Below are positions 20,673 to 53,332 of a stretch of 64,000 nucleotides of DNA, piece by piece. The DNA comes from Planctomycetaceae bacterium. Lineage in GTDB: Bacteria; Planctomycetota; Planctomycetia; Pirellulales; Thermoguttaceae. The DNA is taken from assembly GCA_009778035.1 (NCBI GenBank), contig WRKP01000005.1, positions 1 to 64,000 on the forward strand, in the 5' to 3' direction. The number at the start of each line of letters is the position of its first letter. Positions within the stretch are counted from its first letter, which is position 1. The position numbers and the translations under genes are program-made. Under the pieces are notes generated by a model. It did not search any database. It worked only from the letters and a program-made list of their open reading frames with translations, and had not been told where the DNA came from.

Positions 20673-20819
20673 GAGCGTATCTCAAATTTCACTGGACAAA
20701 AAAAGCCGTCATCCCGGCGCAGGCCGGGATCCAGACATTGCGTGCGATGTTGGTCCTCTGGATTCCGGCTTTCGCCGGAATGACGAAAACACGTCTAGAG
20801 CAATTTGAAACTCGCTCTA
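20673..20819. mobile_element. MITE-like element, full copy with terminal inverted repeats
   Basis: GAGCGTATCTCAAATTTCACTGGACAAAAA...GCCGTCATCCCGGCG ... CGCCGGAATGACG...AATTTGAAACTCGCTCTA. Confidence 0.75.
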
Positions 20820-45237: not shown

Positions 45238-48200
45238 TCACCGTCGCGGGCCGCGACGGTCAGAGGCCTCGAAGCCGATGGGGATCACTCCCACCTGCAT
45301 CGGCTCCTCCGGCGGGCCCGACGGCAAATCCAATACCGATATGCTCATCCGCGTTACCCAAGTGTCCGACAAATCCCAAAATTGACCCGGTACACTCGGC
45401 CAATTCAACGTTACCTCCAACGTCCAATCGCCCGGCGATAAATCATCCAACTGAAACAGACCGTGTTCATCCACCACACACGTCACACGGCTGTCCCAAG
45501 CACGCTGCCGCTGACGCTCCCATTCAATCGCGGCATTCATTATCTGAATCCCCTTTTCGTACAAATCCGGGTTCGCCTCCCGAAACGCTTGGCTCTCCGG
45601 CAACGCCTCCCAACGACGAACAACACGCTCCAACTCGTCAGGACTATTCAGCCAACCCGTGTTCATCTCGGGAGCCTTCAGGATATATGCCATCAACGGC
45701 GGAATCATAGGAGTCGGCAACACCATGCGTTCGGGATATGTCAGTTCCGCCTGAACACTGGCAAAACGCCAATCGACTTTCTCCCTGTCTTCTTCCGTTG
45801 GCAAAGCAATCTCTCCCCGCACCGCGTATCCGCCGCCGCCGATCTTCACGCTCAACATCTCGCCCGGCTCGATGTCATACGATTGCATGTGCGAAGAATG
45901 CCAAGAACTATCGTTATTGAGCGCAATGGATTGCCCGACTCGCCCCTTACCCGAAAAAACACGGTCAAACACGAACCGGCCATTTGCATCGCACGGAATT
46001 CGATAAAAATAACTGATAAACGGCCGATCCCAGTTCCGGTCATCTTCAGGATAAAACTGAAGCGACGCCCACGCATCTTTTGCCGGTTCCGTGCCGGTGT
46101 AGATGGTTCCCTCAATGCGTCCCCACGGCGTGAGCGAAATCGGCTCGGTTCGCTGCTCGAATTCGGCCTTGCGAATTGCCGCAAAGCCGCTGTCATGCAG
46201 GAATATCAGTTTATAGTCCTGATTGCCGAGGCTTATTCCGCTTCGGGAAATCGAAAAATTGCCCGTACTGTCCGTACGGAAAGACCGGTTCCTGCTGTTC
46301 TGAGTCAGTCTTGAATTTTCGAGTGAGAATGGCTGGCCCGGCGTTGCGATGCCGATTTCCGTATGCGACGCCGGGTTGCCGTCCGGCTGCAATACCGTAC
46401 CGATCAGATGGGTAGTGAATTGTCCCGTCGCTTTTTTGAGTTTGAATTCGAGCGTCATGTCGCCCGACTTGGCAATCAAATCGGCCGATTGCAACGCTTC
46501 GTATCCGTCGGCCTCAACTTGCAGATGGTAATTGTCGAATTCGCCGAATCGCTGACCAATCATTCGGGTGAAGTTGCCGTCTCTGCCCGACTGCGTGCCA
46601 AATTCGCGGCTCAAACCGCGGCTGCCCTTGAACGTGAACCATTCCGACACGCCAAAATTCGGGATCGGCTCGCCGGTTTCGGCATCGGTTACGATGCCCG
46701 TAATCTCGAACACCGGCTTGAAAACATAAACATTTTCTTCGCCGCCAAACTTCAACGTGGCGTGATCAATTGTGACGTTTTGGACATTGTCGCCTTCAAT
46801 GATGAAGTTAATCCGGCCATCCGGTGCATGTTCCCAAACGAATCGACCATCTTCACCGGTTCTGACGGCTCCATATTCATCCGCATCGACGAAGAGTCGG
46901 TGCGTTCCGATTCCCTGTCCCCACCAATTGTTCCAAAAGCGAGTCGAAATTCGCATTCCTTCGAGCGGATTGCCAGCCGGGTCAACGGTTTTGAAGATTA
47001 ACGTTCGCCCTTTTCGTAAAACGATGTTCAAGGGTTCCATATCGTGCGAGATTTCTTCCAGCCGCACAATATCCGGGGCAAAGTCGCGATGGCATATGCC
47101 GATGTCCACGGTGCGCAGGTCGCCGTTCGGCGAACAATTCTCGAACAAAAATTCGCCGTTTTCGCCGCTTAGGGTCATTGCATGCCTATGGAAGTTCGTG
47201 TCGTCCTGGGCAGCGTTCGTATGGATAATCGCTCCCACGACGGGATTGCCCTGCTCGTCGAGGACTCTTCCTTTGAGCGGCAAGCCGGCGGGGAGTACAA
47301 TCGTTTTCGTAAACCGGCCGTCGGCATCTTTTGCGGCGAAATCCCGGAACGTTTGGCCCTTAGAAATCCGCAATCTGGGAAAGTCAGGATGCGTTATGGT
47401 TATGTCAAAATTTTGGTCGACCTGTTCCGGCGGCAGGACTTGGTAAATCCAAAATCCGTCGGCATCGGTTTTGAACCATTGTGCGTATTCCAAAATAGGC
47501 GGTGCGGGATTATTTTGCCGACCAGCAATACTCACGCCGAACGAAATGGTCGCATCCGCAACCGGATTGCCGGCGGCGTCGATGACGCGTCCGCCGATGG
47601 GGCCGAAAGCCCTATCCGGCATTTTGAACGAAAGCATCGTCGGCAACGGGTCCCTGGAGGTATCCGGCCAACGGAGTTCGTACGGAGCGAAACCGTCGGG
47701 ATAGAGGACGATTTTGAACGACCTTTGCTCGGCAAAATTGGCAATCGGCACGAAGCATTTGCCGTCGATGAGGTCGAAATTTCGGGGCTGGTTGCCTTCC
47801 CAATCGGCGGGACGCGGATTGGGATAGGTGCGGATGTATCCCGTCGTGCAGGGATTGCCGTCCGCATCGGTCAGTTCGACGGAGATTCCAGGCTCCGTGG
47901 CGTTTACGGGCTCTGTAGCGGTTACAGCCTCCGTGGAATCGCCGAAACGCAAGCCGACGCCGAGCAGTGTCAGCACCGCGAGCAACACAAACGGCAATAC
48001 CAGTTTATGCTTGCTCGACTTTCGTACAGGTCTCATTTCGTTAAACAGCATCGTAATTCTCCTTTTGAGTAGGGATTTGCGCCCTGCCATTCCGAGGGCA
48101 CTGTGCGGCTCGGAAGCAGAACGGATTAGAGCAAAATTGAGCAAAATTCGAGCATAATCGCTCGTTTCTCCGCACGCTTCGGCACCGTCATCATCGGCCA

Positions 48201-49140
48201 GGTAATCCTGGTCGGCAAGCAATCGGCTGCGGAGCATCCAATAAAACGGCTGCATCCAAAGCGGATACTGAAATAGCCGAACGACGTTCCAGGTCAATAA
48301 ATCACCGTTTTTCAGGTGCGACCATTCATGGACGAGACAGGCACGCAGTTCTGAAACCGGTGCTGTACAAAGTCTTTCGGGCAGCAACAGTGTTGGCCGA
48401 AGAAAGCCAAACACCATAGGAGCGGCAATTTTGTCGGAAACCCGTAATCGGACGGCACTCCGGGCATGGCCGCTGATATGGCCGCTGACCTGCCGGAACA
48501 TGGCCAAAACGGGCTCGGAAGCGCAGGCCGAGTGTTTGAGCAGGTAGCGGAGTTTGCATCCTGCCGCGAAGTCGCGGAGGAAGAGAACCAGCGGTACAAG
48601 GATGAGTGCATAACATAGCAGGGAGGCAATCGTAATTTCCAAAAAGGGCTGCATCGACTCGGCCTGCGAGACCACAGGGCCGGAATCGGAGTGAGATAAT
48701 AATGAGCCGGGGACGGATCGCGACAATAATGAGCCGGAATCGGAGTGGAGCGCAGTCCCCGGATATTGAACGTGGTCCGAAAACGGCGCCGCAAGCGGCT
48801 CCATCTGCGGCTCTATGTGCTGCATCGCGATCGAATCGCTCGCGGGAGGCTCCATCCGCTGCACTTCGCCGCCCGGCGGTCGGCGATCTTCCGTATGGAA
48901 GCGATCTGCCGTATGGGAATTGGTTTCCATCACGGGCAGGCCGACCATCCATATCGGCCCGATTCCGCAGCCAATGCAAATAGCGGCACCGGCAACGAGG
49001 CCCAATCCGGCTTGCGTGAGGCGGATTCGGTCGATGGGCTGCCGAAAAAATCGGCGGACGACGAGCACCGCCGCCAGCAGGATGAATGCGACTCCTTCAA
49101 AGAGGAGAATGGACATCAGGATTTCGGATGATATGGTCAT
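45238..49140 (-). CDS. M56 family metallopeptidase (BlaR1-like) fused to carboxypeptidase-regulatory-like repeats
   Basis: LVHEWSHLKNGDLL (HExxH); C-terminal repeats such as GRVLDEQGNPVVGAIIHTNA. Confidence 0.88.
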   Translation of the reverse strand: MTISSEILMSILLFEGVAFILLAAVLVVRRFFRQPIDRIRLTQAGLGLVAGAAICIGCGIGPIWMVGLPVMETNSHTADRFHTEDRRPPGGEVQRMEPPASDSIAMQHIEPQMEPLAAPFSDHVQYPGTALHSDSGSLLSRSVPGSLLSHSDSGPVVSQAESMQPFLEITIASLLCYALILVPLVLFLRDFAAGCKLRYLLKHSACASEPVLAMFRQVSGHISGHARSAVRLRVSDKIAAPMVFGFLRPTLLLPERLCTAPVSELRACLVHEWSHLKNGDLLTWNVVRLFQYPLWMQPFYWMLRSRLLADQDYLADDDGAEACGETSDYARILLNFALIRSASEPHSALGMAGRKSLLKRRITMLFNEMRPVRKSSKHKLVLPFVLLAVLTLLGVGLRFGDSTEAVTATEPVNATEPGISVELTDADGNPCTTGYIRTYPNPRPADWEGNQPRNFDLIDGKCFVPIANFAEQRSFKIVLYPDGFAPYELRWPDTSRDPLPTMLSFKMPDRAFGPIGGRVIDAAGNPVADATISFGVSIAGRQNNPAPPILEYAQWFKTDADGFWIYQVLPPEQVDQNFDITITHPDFPRLRISKGQTFRDFAAKDADGRFTKTIVLPAGLPLKGRVLDEQGNPVVGAIIHTNAAQDDTNFHRHAMTLSGENGEFLFENCSPNGDLRTVDIGICHRDFAPDIVRLEEISHDMEPLNIVLRKGRTLIFKTVDPAGNPLEGMRISTRFWNNWWGQGIGTHRLFVDADEYGAVRTGEDGRFVWEHAPDGRINFIIEGDNVQNVTIDHATLKFGGEENVYVFKPVFEITGIVTDAETGEPIPNFGVSEWFTFKGSRGLSREFGTQSGRDGNFTRMIGQRFGEFDNYHLQVEADGYEALQSADLIAKSGDMTLEFKLKKATGQFTTHLIGTVLQPDGNPASHTEIGIATPGQPFSLENSRLTQNSRNRSFRTDSTGNFSISRSGISLGNQDYKLIFLHDSGFAAIRKAEFEQRTEPISLTPWGRIEGTIYTGTEPAKDAWASLQFYPEDDRNWDRPFISYFYRIPCDANGRFVFDRVFSGKGRVGQSIALNNDSSWHSSHMQSYDIEPGEMLSVKIGGGGYAVRGEIALPTEEDREKVDWRFASVQAELTYPERMVLPTPMIPPLMAYILKAPEMNTGWLNSPDELERVVRRWEALPESQAFREANPDLYEKGIQIMNAAIEWERQRQRAWDSRVTCVVDEHGLFQLDDLSPGDWTLEVTLNWPSVPGQFWDLSDTWVTRMSISVLDLPSGPPEEPMQVGVIPIGFEASDRRGPRR

Positions 49141-49188
49141 GGACGTTTGTTGGTGTATTGGCGTGTATCAATCGACAAGGTGCGGTTT

Positions 49189-49575
49189 TTATCCCTTTTG
49201 TTTTTTCACCCGTTCTTTCGCAATCAACTTTTCGATTTCTCGCAGTTCGTCGGCGGAGAGGTTTTCGGCCTGGAGCATAGAGAGCACGAGTCGGTCTACG
49301 GCACCGTCGAAGACTTTGTGCAGGAATCGGGAGCCGGCTTGTTCGATGGTGTAATTCGGCTTGTAATAAAGGGTTCGGTTGACATTTCGGACTTGGAGAA
49401 AGCCTTTTTCGGCCATGATACGGACGAGTGTTTGGATGGTCGTGAGGGCGAATTCGCCGTTGGGGGCCATTATTTGGTGTATTGTGCGGACGGGCGCTTC
49501 GCCGACATTCCAAAAGACTTTAAGGATATCCATTTCTCGTTCGCTGGGAGCGGAGGCCAATTCTTGCCGTGCCAT
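49189..49575 (-). CDS. BlaI/MecI/CopY-type transcriptional regulator
   Basis: SEREMDILKVFWNVGEAPVRTIHQIM...ALTTIQTLVRIMAEKGFL. Confidence 0.9.
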   Translation of the reverse strand: MARQELASAPSEREMDILKVFWNVGEAPVRTIHQIMAPNGEFALTTIQTLVRIMAEKGFLQVRNVNRTLYYKPNYTIEQAGSRFLHKVFDGAVDRLVLSMLQAENLSADELREIEKLIAKERVKKQKG

Positions 49576-49743: not shown

Positions 49744-50223
49744 CTATTGTTTGCAGAAAACCTTCAACGGCTTGCTATCCAGCGAAACATCGGCCACATA
49801 TCGTATCCCTGCCCGGATGACTTCCATCATAACGCTCTCCTCCGCTTGCAAAGTCCGCCAGTTTTGGGCAATCCAGTGCATATCGTTGGACGATTCTATG
49901 TGCCGCTGACCAATACCGACAATGGTGTCTCCTGTTGCAATTCCTCTCTTTGCCGCAGGACTGTCTGCCCGCACACACACCACACGCACTCCGCCATATT
50001 CTTGCATCGAAGGGACATAGCGGATGCCGAGAGTTTCCCAAATGATTTCGTCCTGCGAAGCGCCGGCTAAACGAGTTGGTTGCCCCTGGCAAAATGCTGT
50101 GGTAACGCCGACGAGCAATGCGGCCGTCAAGACTGATGCCGTCCAGGCCTGCGAACTCGCGGGCCTCCCGTGCTTACGCAATGGACTTTGGATTTGTTCG
50201 ATGCGTTTTTCGAATCTGCTCAT
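49744..50223 (-). CDS. PDZ-domain protein with membrane anchor (M56-derived linker)
   Basis: RIEQIQSPLRKHG..ASSQAWTASV linker shared with the 51051-52925 protein; PDZ region VRADSPAAKRGIATGDTIVGIGQ. Confidence 0.75.
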   Translation of the reverse strand: MSRFEKRIEQIQSPLRKHGRPASSQAWTASVLTAALLVGVTTAFCQGQPTRLAGASQDEIIWETLGIRYVPSMQEYGGVRVVCVRADSPAAKRGIATGDTIVGIGQRHIESSNDMHWIAQNWRTLQAEESVMMEVIRAGIRYVADVSLDSKPLKVFCKQ

Positions 50224-50299
50224 TTCTAGAACTCCTTTTGTGAGAATGGCCAAAGTAGTCGGATTATAGCATATGCCGTGTCCGATTGCCAGTAGATGA

Positions 50300-50716
50300 T
50301 CAGACCGATTCCGCGAATTCACTCAATTTTACAATTTTCGTCTTCTCAAATCGTTGCATCGTGAGCAGGTCAAGGTCGCCGGTAATCAGGTAGTCGGCAT
50401 GACCATCCTTTGCCAAAGCGAGGAGAAAGTTGTCCTTTGGATCTCGGCAAGCATCAACGACGGAGCGGACATCGACAAGTTCGGCACTGCGTTTTAGCAA
50501 TGCAACGAGTCTCGCATAATTTTCTGGGTTGATTTGCCTTGCAAGGTACGGCTTGCGGACGGCATTCGCCAAGTCTTCGAATAATGCTTCGGAAACCAAT
50601 AAACGGTATTTTGAATTGAATACCATTTTGAGGCGAACACGGAACCCCGGCGACAGCATCGAACTGACCCAAGCATTTGTATCAACGACAAGCCGTATTT
50701 TTTTGTTTGTCTGCAT
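50300..50716 (-). CDS. PIN-domain toxin (putative TA toxin, PIN family)
   Basis: LVVDTNAWVSSML, DPKDNFLLALAKDGHADYLITGDLDLL. Confidence 0.85.
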   Translation of the reverse strand: MQTNKKIRLVVDTNAWVSSMLSPGFRVRLKMVFNSKYRLLVSEALFEDLANAVRKPYLARQINPENYARLVALLKRSAELVDVRSVVDACRDPKDNFLLALAKDGHADYLITGDLDLLTMQRFEKTKIVKLSEFAESV

Positions 50717-50972
50717 AAAGTTCCGCTCGGGCTTCTTTACAAATCGCAACGATTTCTTCCATAGTCGGTTCGTCTTTTTCGGTAAATCCTTGACTTTTGC
50801 GCCATGCATCCATGTCACGTCCGATAAGACTGAACTCATCCAATGCGGAAATCGCTTCTTCATCCACTTCGGGCTCGTCTATTTCGATGAGGTTCTGCGA
50901 CGCAAGATCGACGATCAGGCGTTCCGCCTTGGGATCGACAATCCTGATACTCATTGTTTTTACGACTGTCAT
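50682..50972 (-). CDS. putative antitoxin partner of the PIN toxin
   Basis: 96 aa, overlaps the PIN gene start by 35 nt; acidic C-terminus. Confidence 0.65.
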   Translation of the reverse strand: MTVVKTMSIRIVDPKAERLIVDLASQNLIEIDEPEVDEEAISALDEFSLIGRDMDAWRKSQGFTEKDEPTMEEIVAICKEARAELYADKQKNTACR

Positions 50973-51050
50973 AGTACGGCCCTTGTTTCGTTAACGCGTT
51001 CTATTTTCTAACAAATTTTGCAGTTTTACAAGACGGCGACTGGAGCCGCA

Positions 51051-52925
51051 CTACTCCAACGCCCAAATGCGAACGACTCTGTCCTCGCCGCCCGTTACTA
51101 TTTTCCCACCATCCGGTGAAAAAATTGCCGAATGCACATCATCCCTGTGCTCCCGCAATACCAATAACTCCCCTCCCGACTCGGCTTCCCAAATCCGAAC
51201 CGTTCCGTCATCCCCACACGTCACGACAAACCTTCCGTCAGGAGAAAAAGCCGCCGAAGAAACATCATCCCCATGTCCCCGTAATGCTTGCAATTCCCCG
51301 CCGGATTCGGCATCCCAAATCCGAGCCGTATTGTCCTCACTTGCCGTTACGATTCGCCTGCCGTTCGGGGAAAAAACCGCCGATTCGACCGAATCCGTAT
51401 GTCCCCGCAATGTTCGCAATTCCCTGCCCGATTCGGCATCCCAAATCCGAACCGTTCTGTCCGAACTGCTCGAAACAATTCGCCGTCCATCCTGCGAAAA
51501 AGCAACGGAATTGACATCATCCCTGTGTCCCTGCAATGTTTGCAACGCCCTTCCCGATTCGGCATCCCAAATGCGGATGGTGTTGTCCTCGCTGCCCGTT
51601 ACGATTCGCCTGCCGTTCGGAGAAAAAACCGCCGATTCGACCGTATCTCTATGTCCTTGTAGCCGTCGCAATTCTCTGCCGGATTCGGCATCCCAAATCC
51701 GGGCAGTTCTGTCCGAACTGCTTGTTACAATGTGCCTTCCGTCTGGCGAAAAAGCGGCGAAATTGACGTCGTCCGTGTGGCCACTCAATGTTTGCAGTTC
51801 TCTGCCGGATTCGGCGTCCCAAATCCGGGCAGTCCTGTCCGAACTGCTCGTTACAATGCGTCTTCCGTCCGGCGAAAAAGCAACGGAACTGACATCGTTT
51901 GTATGGCCTCGGATTTCCAAAATGGAACGAGCAGCGGTGATCGTTCCGGCTGGCAATCGGCTATCACCGTCGTTGCCGCCTGAAATTCGGCTTTGCGGCT
52001 GTCCCTGACAAAACGCCAGGGTAATACTGACGAGCAGGGCGGTCGAAAAGACCGATGCCGTCCAGGCCTGCGAACTCGCGTGACTCCCGTGCTTACGCAA
52101 CGGGCTCTGTATTTGTTCAATACGTCTCATAATTTTCTCCTTTCGTGAAAATGGTTGAAGGATAGGAAGTAAACGTTCTCCGGCAACGAGCCGAAGAAGT
52201 GTATCGGTATATTGTTCCGGCGGAATGTTCCCCTGTGCAAGCACGACATAATCGCAGGCCTCATCGGCAGCAAAATCGCATTGCCAAAGCACGAACCAGT
52301 ACAAAGGATGCCAAAACAGTAAGGCTCCGCATAGCCGCGTGAACAGAGCGGTCAAGTGATCCCGACGGATGATGTGCGATAATTCGTGCAGAAACACGGC
52401 ATCGCGTTCGGTATTGTCGAGTTTTTCCGCCAGCGATTCGGGCAGCAACACCGCCGGATGGAGCCCCCAGCACCAGACCGTCGGGCTTTTGACGCTCGGC
52501 GATGTGAACAAAATCGGCAGCGATACATTGCGGAGCATCTTGGAATGACGCAAAAGCGCATCCTGCAGTTCTCTGTCGGGATAGGGGGTTGCGTGGAACA
52601 TCAATTTTCGTGAATGGGCAATGCCGTAGAGCAGGATGGCGAGGAAAAAGAGCATTCCTGCAAGGCAAAATATGCCGAGCGTGTGGAGATTGATCCATTG
52701 CGGAATGACGGAGATTTGCAGCATTCCATTTCCGGTAGCGAAGACGAGCGTGGAAAGCAGGGGTGTGAGTATCGCGGCAAAAATCCCTGTGGCGTAGAGC
52801 CAATGGGCTTTCCAGGGTGCGTATCGGTAGCGTTTTCCGAGCACCCACGCGGCAGCCAGCCAAAACGTGGACTGCCAAAGGGCGAAAAGCACGAAAGTAC
52901 CGAGAAGGGGGATTGTGGTTGTCAT
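51051..52925 (-). CDS. M56 family metallopeptidase fused to a WD40-repeat domain
   Basis: HELSHIIRRDHL (HExxH); seven GH..DV.S..FSPDGR.IVT...D.T.RIWDAESG repeats. Confidence 0.92.
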   Translation of the reverse strand: MTTTIPLLGTFVLFALWQSTFWLAAAWVLGKRYRYAPWKAHWLYATGIFAAILTPLLSTLVFATGNGMLQISVIPQWINLHTLGIFCLAGMLFFLAILLYGIAHSRKLMFHATPYPDRELQDALLRHSKMLRNVSLPILFTSPSVKSPTVWCWGLHPAVLLPESLAEKLDNTERDAVFLHELSHIIRRDHLTALFTRLCGALLFWHPLYWFVLWQCDFAADEACDYVVLAQGNIPPEQYTDTLLRLVAGERLLPILQPFSRKEKIMRRIEQIQSPLRKHGSHASSQAWTASVFSTALLVSITLAFCQGQPQSRISGGNDGDSRLPAGTITAARSILEIRGHTNDVSSVAFSPDGRRIVTSSSDRTARIWDAESGRELQTLSGHTDDVNFAAFSPDGRHIVTSSSDRTARIWDAESGRELRRLQGHRDTVESAVFSPNGRRIVTGSEDNTIRIWDAESGRALQTLQGHRDDVNSVAFSQDGRRIVSSSSDRTVRIWDAESGRELRTLRGHTDSVESAVFSPNGRRIVTASEDNTARIWDAESGGELQALRGHGDDVSSAAFSPDGRFVVTCGDDGTVRIWEAESGGELLVLREHRDDVHSAIFSPDGGKIVTGGEDRVVRIWALE

Positions 52926-53332
52926 AGGTTCTGTGAACGTTCTTTTTTTTCGGCAATCATTTTTCGTATCTCTGCCAATTCATCCTCGTTGAGGCCGGTA
53001 TCATCGACGAAATGCTGGAACAGGAGCGTTTTGCTTCCGCCGAGGAAGGTGTCGGCAAATTTCCGCAGGGCGTCGCCGATGGCACCGCTTCGGCTACGCG
53101 TCGCTTTGTACAGGTACGTTCGGCAATTATCCGGGGCGGGCTCGTGGGTGAGCCAGCCGGTTTTTTCGAGTTTTTGCATCGTAGCGAGTACGGTCGTGTA
53201 GGCCAGCGGCGTATCGGTATTGGCATTGAGTTCGGCAAGGACATCGTGAACGGTGGCTCCGTTGCGTTGCCAAACGATTTCCAGCACACGGCGTTGTTGT
53301 CCGCCGAGGGCGTTGAGTTCGTGTGCGTTCAT
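52922..53332 (-). CDS. BlaI/MecI/CopY-type transcriptional regulator
   Basis: LEIVWQRNGATVHDVLAELN...AYTTVLATMQKLEKTGWL; ATGA overlap with the M56-WD40 gene. Confidence 0.9.
   Translation of the reverse strand: MNAHELNALGGQQRRVLEIVWQRNGATVHDVLAELNANTDTPLAYTTVLATMQKLEKTGWLTHEPAPDNCRTYLYKATRSRSGAIGDALRKFADTFLGGSKTLLFQHFVDDTGLNEDELAEIRKMIAEKKERSQNL

Follow-up and report, generated by a model that had tools for sequence, protein, structure and literature searches.

The last transmembrane helix of an M56 receptor as a probable source of secretion leaders in one genus of Planctomycetes

The 64,000-nucleotide stretch of contig WRKP01000005.1 that was analysed here as a whole (the window) raises the question of how one and the same segment can lie deep inside the gene of a membrane receptor and at the very start of a gene encoding a small protein of a different kind. 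The first gene (51051..52925, minus strand) encodes an M56 (BlaR1-like) receptor with a WD40 sensor, in which Pfam detects the M56 domain (PF05569, 79.7 bits, match 52113-52685), its HExxH signature present as FLHELSH, and seven WD40 repeats (E 7.8e-91). A BlaI-type repressor (Penicillinase_R, PF03965, E 2.8e-22; 52922..53332, minus strand) is encoded directly upstream, and the two form a BlaI/BlaR1-like pair resembling the BlaR1/MecR1-BlaI systems in the adjacency of the repressor to an M56 protease with HExxH. The sensor, however, is WD40 here (PDZ, repeats and HEAT in a related genome) instead of a penicillin-binding domain, for which Pfam gave no match in the M56-WD40 protein; judged by its domains, this protein is a member of the M56 family and not a beta-lactam receptor. 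The second gene, on the same strand (ATG at 50223, stop at 49744), encodes 159 amino acids composed of an M56-derived leader (signal peptide or anchor, ending in ...AFC|QGQP; 50089..50223, minus strand) and one HtrA-PDZ2-like PDZ domain as payload (49777..50055, minus strand; PF13180, E 1.6e-9). Pfam assigns it to PDZ families only: the zinc protease domain of M56 proteins was not found in it, and just the post-protease linker is shared with them; nor does it combine PDZ with a trypsin-like protease domain as HtrA/Deg proteins do. Between the two genes, at 50300-50972, the gene of a PIN-domain protein and the small gene ahead of it, which probably form a toxin-antitoxin pair, abut the leader region. 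A second BlaI-M56 pair, with a carboxypeptidase-regulatory sensor, is located at 45238-49575, and palindromic elements CATTCCGGCGNANGCCGGAATC are scattered at 20782, 30644, 31559, 44134 and 53499. All compared loci are contigs of metagenome-assembled genomes (MAGs); binning errors do not touch the PDZ and M56-WD40 pair, because both genes reside on one contig. The habitat of these Planctomycetes is presumably the termite gut, to judge by a bin name.

The initial annotation stated that the PDZ protein starts with a sequence matching the post-M56 linker of the WD40 protein and that this similarity extends upstream of the start codon at DNA level, and both statements proved correct. The PDZ leader (RIEQIQSPLRKHG..AFCQGQP) and the segment of the receptor comprising linker and last transmembrane (TM) helix (MRRIEQIQSPLRKHG...AFCQGQP; 51996..52130, minus strand; delimited by an alignment of 22 M56 proteins and profile search) share 35 of 44 residues (80%, E 1e-20), with 81% DNA identity over 129 bp. 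Ahead of the start, the block CCATTYTCACRAAAGGAG is identical at 16 of 18 positions between the two genes. The Shine-Dalgarno (SD) sequence of the PDZ gene, AAAAGGAG (50232..50239, minus strand), corresponds by homology to codons for Arg-Lys-Glu in the M56 gene, where the SD-like GAAAGGAG (52137-52144, minus strand) precedes an in-frame ATG (52128-52130) by 6 nt; what is coding sequence in the receptor thus serves as SD region in the protease-less gene, as had been proposed. A 17-nt block, CATTTTCACGAAAGGAG, located within the M56 coding sequence at 52137..52153 (minus strand), occurs four times in the genome. Across the 2.46-Mb genome, the search for CATTNTCACRAAAGGAG with up to two mismatches returned exactly four matches, every one of them perfect and placed immediately before a leader gene, namely M56-WD40, PDZ, a HEAT gene on contig C10 and a gene of a fourth secreted protein on contig C2, while the reversed-pattern control gave 2 matches. 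When the 60 nt upstream of the receptor's internal start were compared with 83 SD-bearing starts sampled from the window genome, the C2 (L004), C10 (HEAT) and PDZ genes were the three best non-self sequences, with scores of 42, 31 and 26, the next one reaching 22. The linker itself recurs on C10 (10866-11006, E 2e-19) and, as a weak match, on C2 (32189-32302); with the PDZ leader as reference, it is found at E of about 1e-19 in two further places, M56-WD40 among them, and the fourth occurrence is weak. The recurrence anticipated for this segment is thus observed, and its upstream match holds genome-wide.

The extent of homology turned out to be larger than linker and upstream match if the PDZ gene is compared with its C10 counterpart, which encodes a HEAT-repeat protein. 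The 5′ region of the PDZ gene at 50085..50289 (minus strand), a mobile-looking cassette of putative promoter, 5′UTR with SD and leader codons, is 92% identical over 205 bp to G000:C10:10868-11072, so that promoter, SD and leader codons are all common to both. By sequence reading, a putative -10 box TATAAT preceded by TGC (extended -10) lies at 50263..50268 (minus strand), and this element is kept in both genes as TGCTATAAT (PDZ) and TGTTATAAT (C10). The two leaders are 82% identical over 46 amino acids. The HEAT payload of C10 shares 67% identity with the end of the M56 receptor of genome G095 and 79% with a second gene of the window genome, the 5′ end of which is cut by the contig end. Upstream homology of the PDZ and HEAT genes to the WD40 gene spans just about 18 bp, and the original length of the copied M56 DNA is not inferable from so short a match.

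Genes that lack the protease half and begin at this Met are present in six genomes of the genus (the window genome G000, G095, G098, G101, G110 and G112). In the family outside the genus, the leader search gave weak, frame-broken matches only. For each leader, the best DNA match among the M56 linkers comes from its own genome or from the nearest available lineage, and this suggests that leaders arose separately at least twice (in G000 and in G096/G098/G110), though gene conversion among leaders inside one genome could mimic a within-genome origin. In G095, the leader gene is situated directly downstream of its own M56 gene, to which it is only marginally closer in pairwise scoring (49 vs 44); this gene (L033:4685-6682) repeats the receptor's leader together with its first sensor segment (AFCQEGK..TANQAGEFTLE). 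About 30 bp of upstream M56 DNA are kept by the G110 leader gene. A direct remnant comes from G098, where a protein of 498 amino acids begins with MKRINTILDFSE, resembling the G096 M56 linker, and the ATG is preceded by 100 bp that match G096 M56 coding sequence at 88% identity. This DNA keeps 37 M56 residues (70%, tblastn E 8e-13), the remaining M56 being absent, and the loss of the protease half that had been supposed for the window PDZ gene is thereby seen for the G098 gene, not for the PDZ gene. Read by eye, the G098 junction contains TTGACA-N17-TATACT, half of it former M56 codons, which would make a good sigma-70-like promoter. In G098, a DNA methyltransferase-like gene and another gene, possibly forming a restriction-modification pair, occupy L065:4190-5983, immediately ahead of the truncated M56 remnant.

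Ribosome-binding sites and signal peptides are alike in composition, and one might ascribe the similarity to convergence or to a genome-wide style of 5′UTRs and signal peptides. We give this practically no credence: the confinement of the 17-nt block to four leader genes genome-wide refutes it by count, and DNA identity amounts to 81-92% over 129-205 bp. If the similarity is a matter of descent, its direction has to be decided. The receptor junction, with its SD, ATG, hydrophobic stretch and AxA, does resemble a gene start, and some other M56 genes show Met with a signal-like stretch at the same place; in this genus such a boundary between protease and sensor is seen in further M56 subfamilies (L008, L137, L138), and in the second BlaI-M56 pair of the window AAAAGGAG precedes an in-frame Met where protease and TM helix adjoin (LLKRRITM). 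The WD40 gene might then be derived, created when read-through joined an M56 protease to a downstream gene that already encoded a secreted protein and had an SD and signal peptide of its own, as the initial annotation had offered for one of two readings. This appears highly improbable, since RKEKIMRRIEQI is found in the M56 domain of distant homologues and is common to three orthologues, and since the M56 codons upstream of the G098 start are unpredicted by such a fusion. The Pfam M56 match extends to 52113, through RRIEQI, into the linker; across the family's 22 aligned M56 proteins, K..(L/M)xRRIxxI is a general feature just ahead of the last TM helix, and KIMRRIEQI of the M56-WD40 linker aligns with this C-terminal motif. 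The M56 orthologues in G095 (its M56 69% identical to the M56 part of the M56-WD40 protein) and G096 have linker forms of their own, SRKEKIMKRI..LAFCQE and SRKDRIMKRI..LAFCQE. As the linker is part of a general M56 motif and is present in orthologues, the M56 gene is the donor: on these alignments the linker is a property of M56, and the protease-less leader genes are derived.

Derivation from M56 leaves the source of the payload to be settled, and the simplest reading offered initially was that an M56-PDZ receptor gene merely lost its protease half. M56 receptors with PDZ in the sensor do exist in the genus (G095), and G098 directly exemplifies a gene that lost its protease half; for the window gene we nevertheless hold this route to be unlikely. 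The closest relatives of its PDZ are the second PDZ domains of HtrA-type proteases, with HtrA PDZ2 of the same genome (C2:19463-19795) among the best at 45% identity (38.5% over 109 alignment columns, E 9e-18, by blastp), and the similarity includes the preceding D..W..LGI segment. In blastp that included the PDZ-bearing G095 M56 receptor, the window protein matched the latter in the linker only, and its PDZ domain follows the leader almost directly. The structure model of residues 61-150, mostly at pLDDT 62-93, matches HtrA PDZ structures and agrees with PF13180 on the PDZ fold. Thus the domain is homologous to the second PDZ of HtrA/Deg and keeps the LGI carboxylate-loop motif, while the protein differs from HtrA/Deg by having neither the serine protease domain nor the first PDZ and by carrying an M56-derived leader. 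By its nearest relatives, the gene is a chimera combining the leader of one protease with the PDZ of another, and the catalytic domain of neither. It most likely encodes a small protein, periplasmic or anchored in the membrane, that is predicted to bind peptides and to have no protease activity; the leader shows an AxA/AFCQ pattern, and its moderate hydropathy (max KD17 1.95) would be compatible with either an uncut anchor or a cleaved leader.

A modular swap of C-terminal domains in M56 sensors, supposed from the window alone, emerged distinctly from comparison with G095. The two loci are homologous over BlaI and M56 as far as about 51985, the AFCQ site, and no farther; beyond this site the window has WD40, and G095 has PDZ, three repeats and HEAT. 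Because the orthologous BlaI-M56-linker of G095 bears PDZ/repeat/HEAT and not WD40, sensor exchange behind a conserved BlaI-M56-linker is real. Literature search yielded no report of M56-WD40 receptors or of reuse of the M56 tail as leader.

Whether the SD-ATG inside the M56 gene is itself used is a separate matter. The junction SD is the strongest among five internal in-frame ATGs of M56-WD40, and its rank is second in the G096 orthologue and outside the top four in G095. Selection on this internal SD was considered and finds no support: Arg-CGA and Lys-AAG are identical in 3/3 orthologues, but codon identity is unexceptional, with identical codons for 33% of conserved residues and equally long identical runs elsewhere. 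In the n-region, dN/dS is low (0.09-0.19) for PDZ or HEAT vs WD40, while the PDZ and HEAT leaders compared with each other show no sign of purifying selection (ratio about 1.5-2, not significant); with this ratio, a retained contact of helix alpha9 with the protease in protease-less genes is unsupported. It is only a tentative suggestion, and a rather doubtful one, that the site is a working internal start, a single receptor mRNA yielding the protease receptor plus a short alpha9-TM-sensor protein, with the derivatives acting in trans. If true, stand-alone derivatives could, via the retained alpha9, pair with the full-length receptor and could plug other sensors into one protease.

What appears quite probable to us is that the last M56 helix, together with SD and signal-peptidase-like site, constitutes a secretion leader that has been repeatedly freed or copied and joined to varied payloads. 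The common segment would represent the 3′ boundary of the M56 module, running from the end of the pre-alpha9 loop through alpha9 and the last TM helix to a signal-peptidase-like site (AxAFCQ); by chance or selection, its codons also hold a ribosome-binding site with an ATG behind it. With a start site, a helix inserting N-in/C-out and a likely processing site, such a segment may be pre-adapted as a start module, and this presumed pre-adaptation would account for its repeated release or copying within the genus. In the window genome, one copy would have gained a promoter and been joined to an HtrA-type PDZ2 domain, and on C10 the same segment, within the 205-bp cassette of promoter, SD and leader, would have been joined to a repeat-HEAT fragment; exchange of sensors behind intact BlaI-M56-linker (WD40 in the window, PDZ/repeats/HEAT in G095) would be a separate process.

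Staphylococcal BlaR1 provides a structural parallel. Its protease cleaves itself at Ser283|Phe284, immediately ahead of alpha9, a domain-swapped helix whose Arg294 extends into the active site of the partner; the sensor is shed when signal peptidase cleaves behind the last TM helix, at Gly331|Gln332 (PMC9834060). The window linker may correspond by position to this loop end, alpha9, TM helix and peptidase site, sequence identity of the stretch to BlaR1 being too low for direct alignment. A fragment starting from the internal Met would then resemble the natural C-terminal autocleavage product of BlaR1, already insertable and processable. Placement of the last TM helix between protease and sensor is common to the receptors compared, signal-peptidase processing being documented for BlaR1 (PMC9834060); they differ in that the M56 tail segment is here also found as a stand-alone start module.

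A short N-terminal match to the M56 linker does not imply M56 membership, and annotation of such proteins calls for caution. Gene fission or fusion and signal-peptide capture are routes to new secreted proteins, and the joining of a leader to a new payload is likewise seen here; the difference from these routes is that the leader stems from inside a polytopic receptor, as a TM segment harbouring a latent SD-ATG, and that it was used repeatedly in one genus. These genes may show the origin of secreted bacterial proteins caught in the act, with an internal receptor helix and a ribosome-binding site residing in codons turned into new gene starts and G098 as one preserved intermediate. The question of how new exported proteins gain promoter, start site and leader together would thereby become directly testable.
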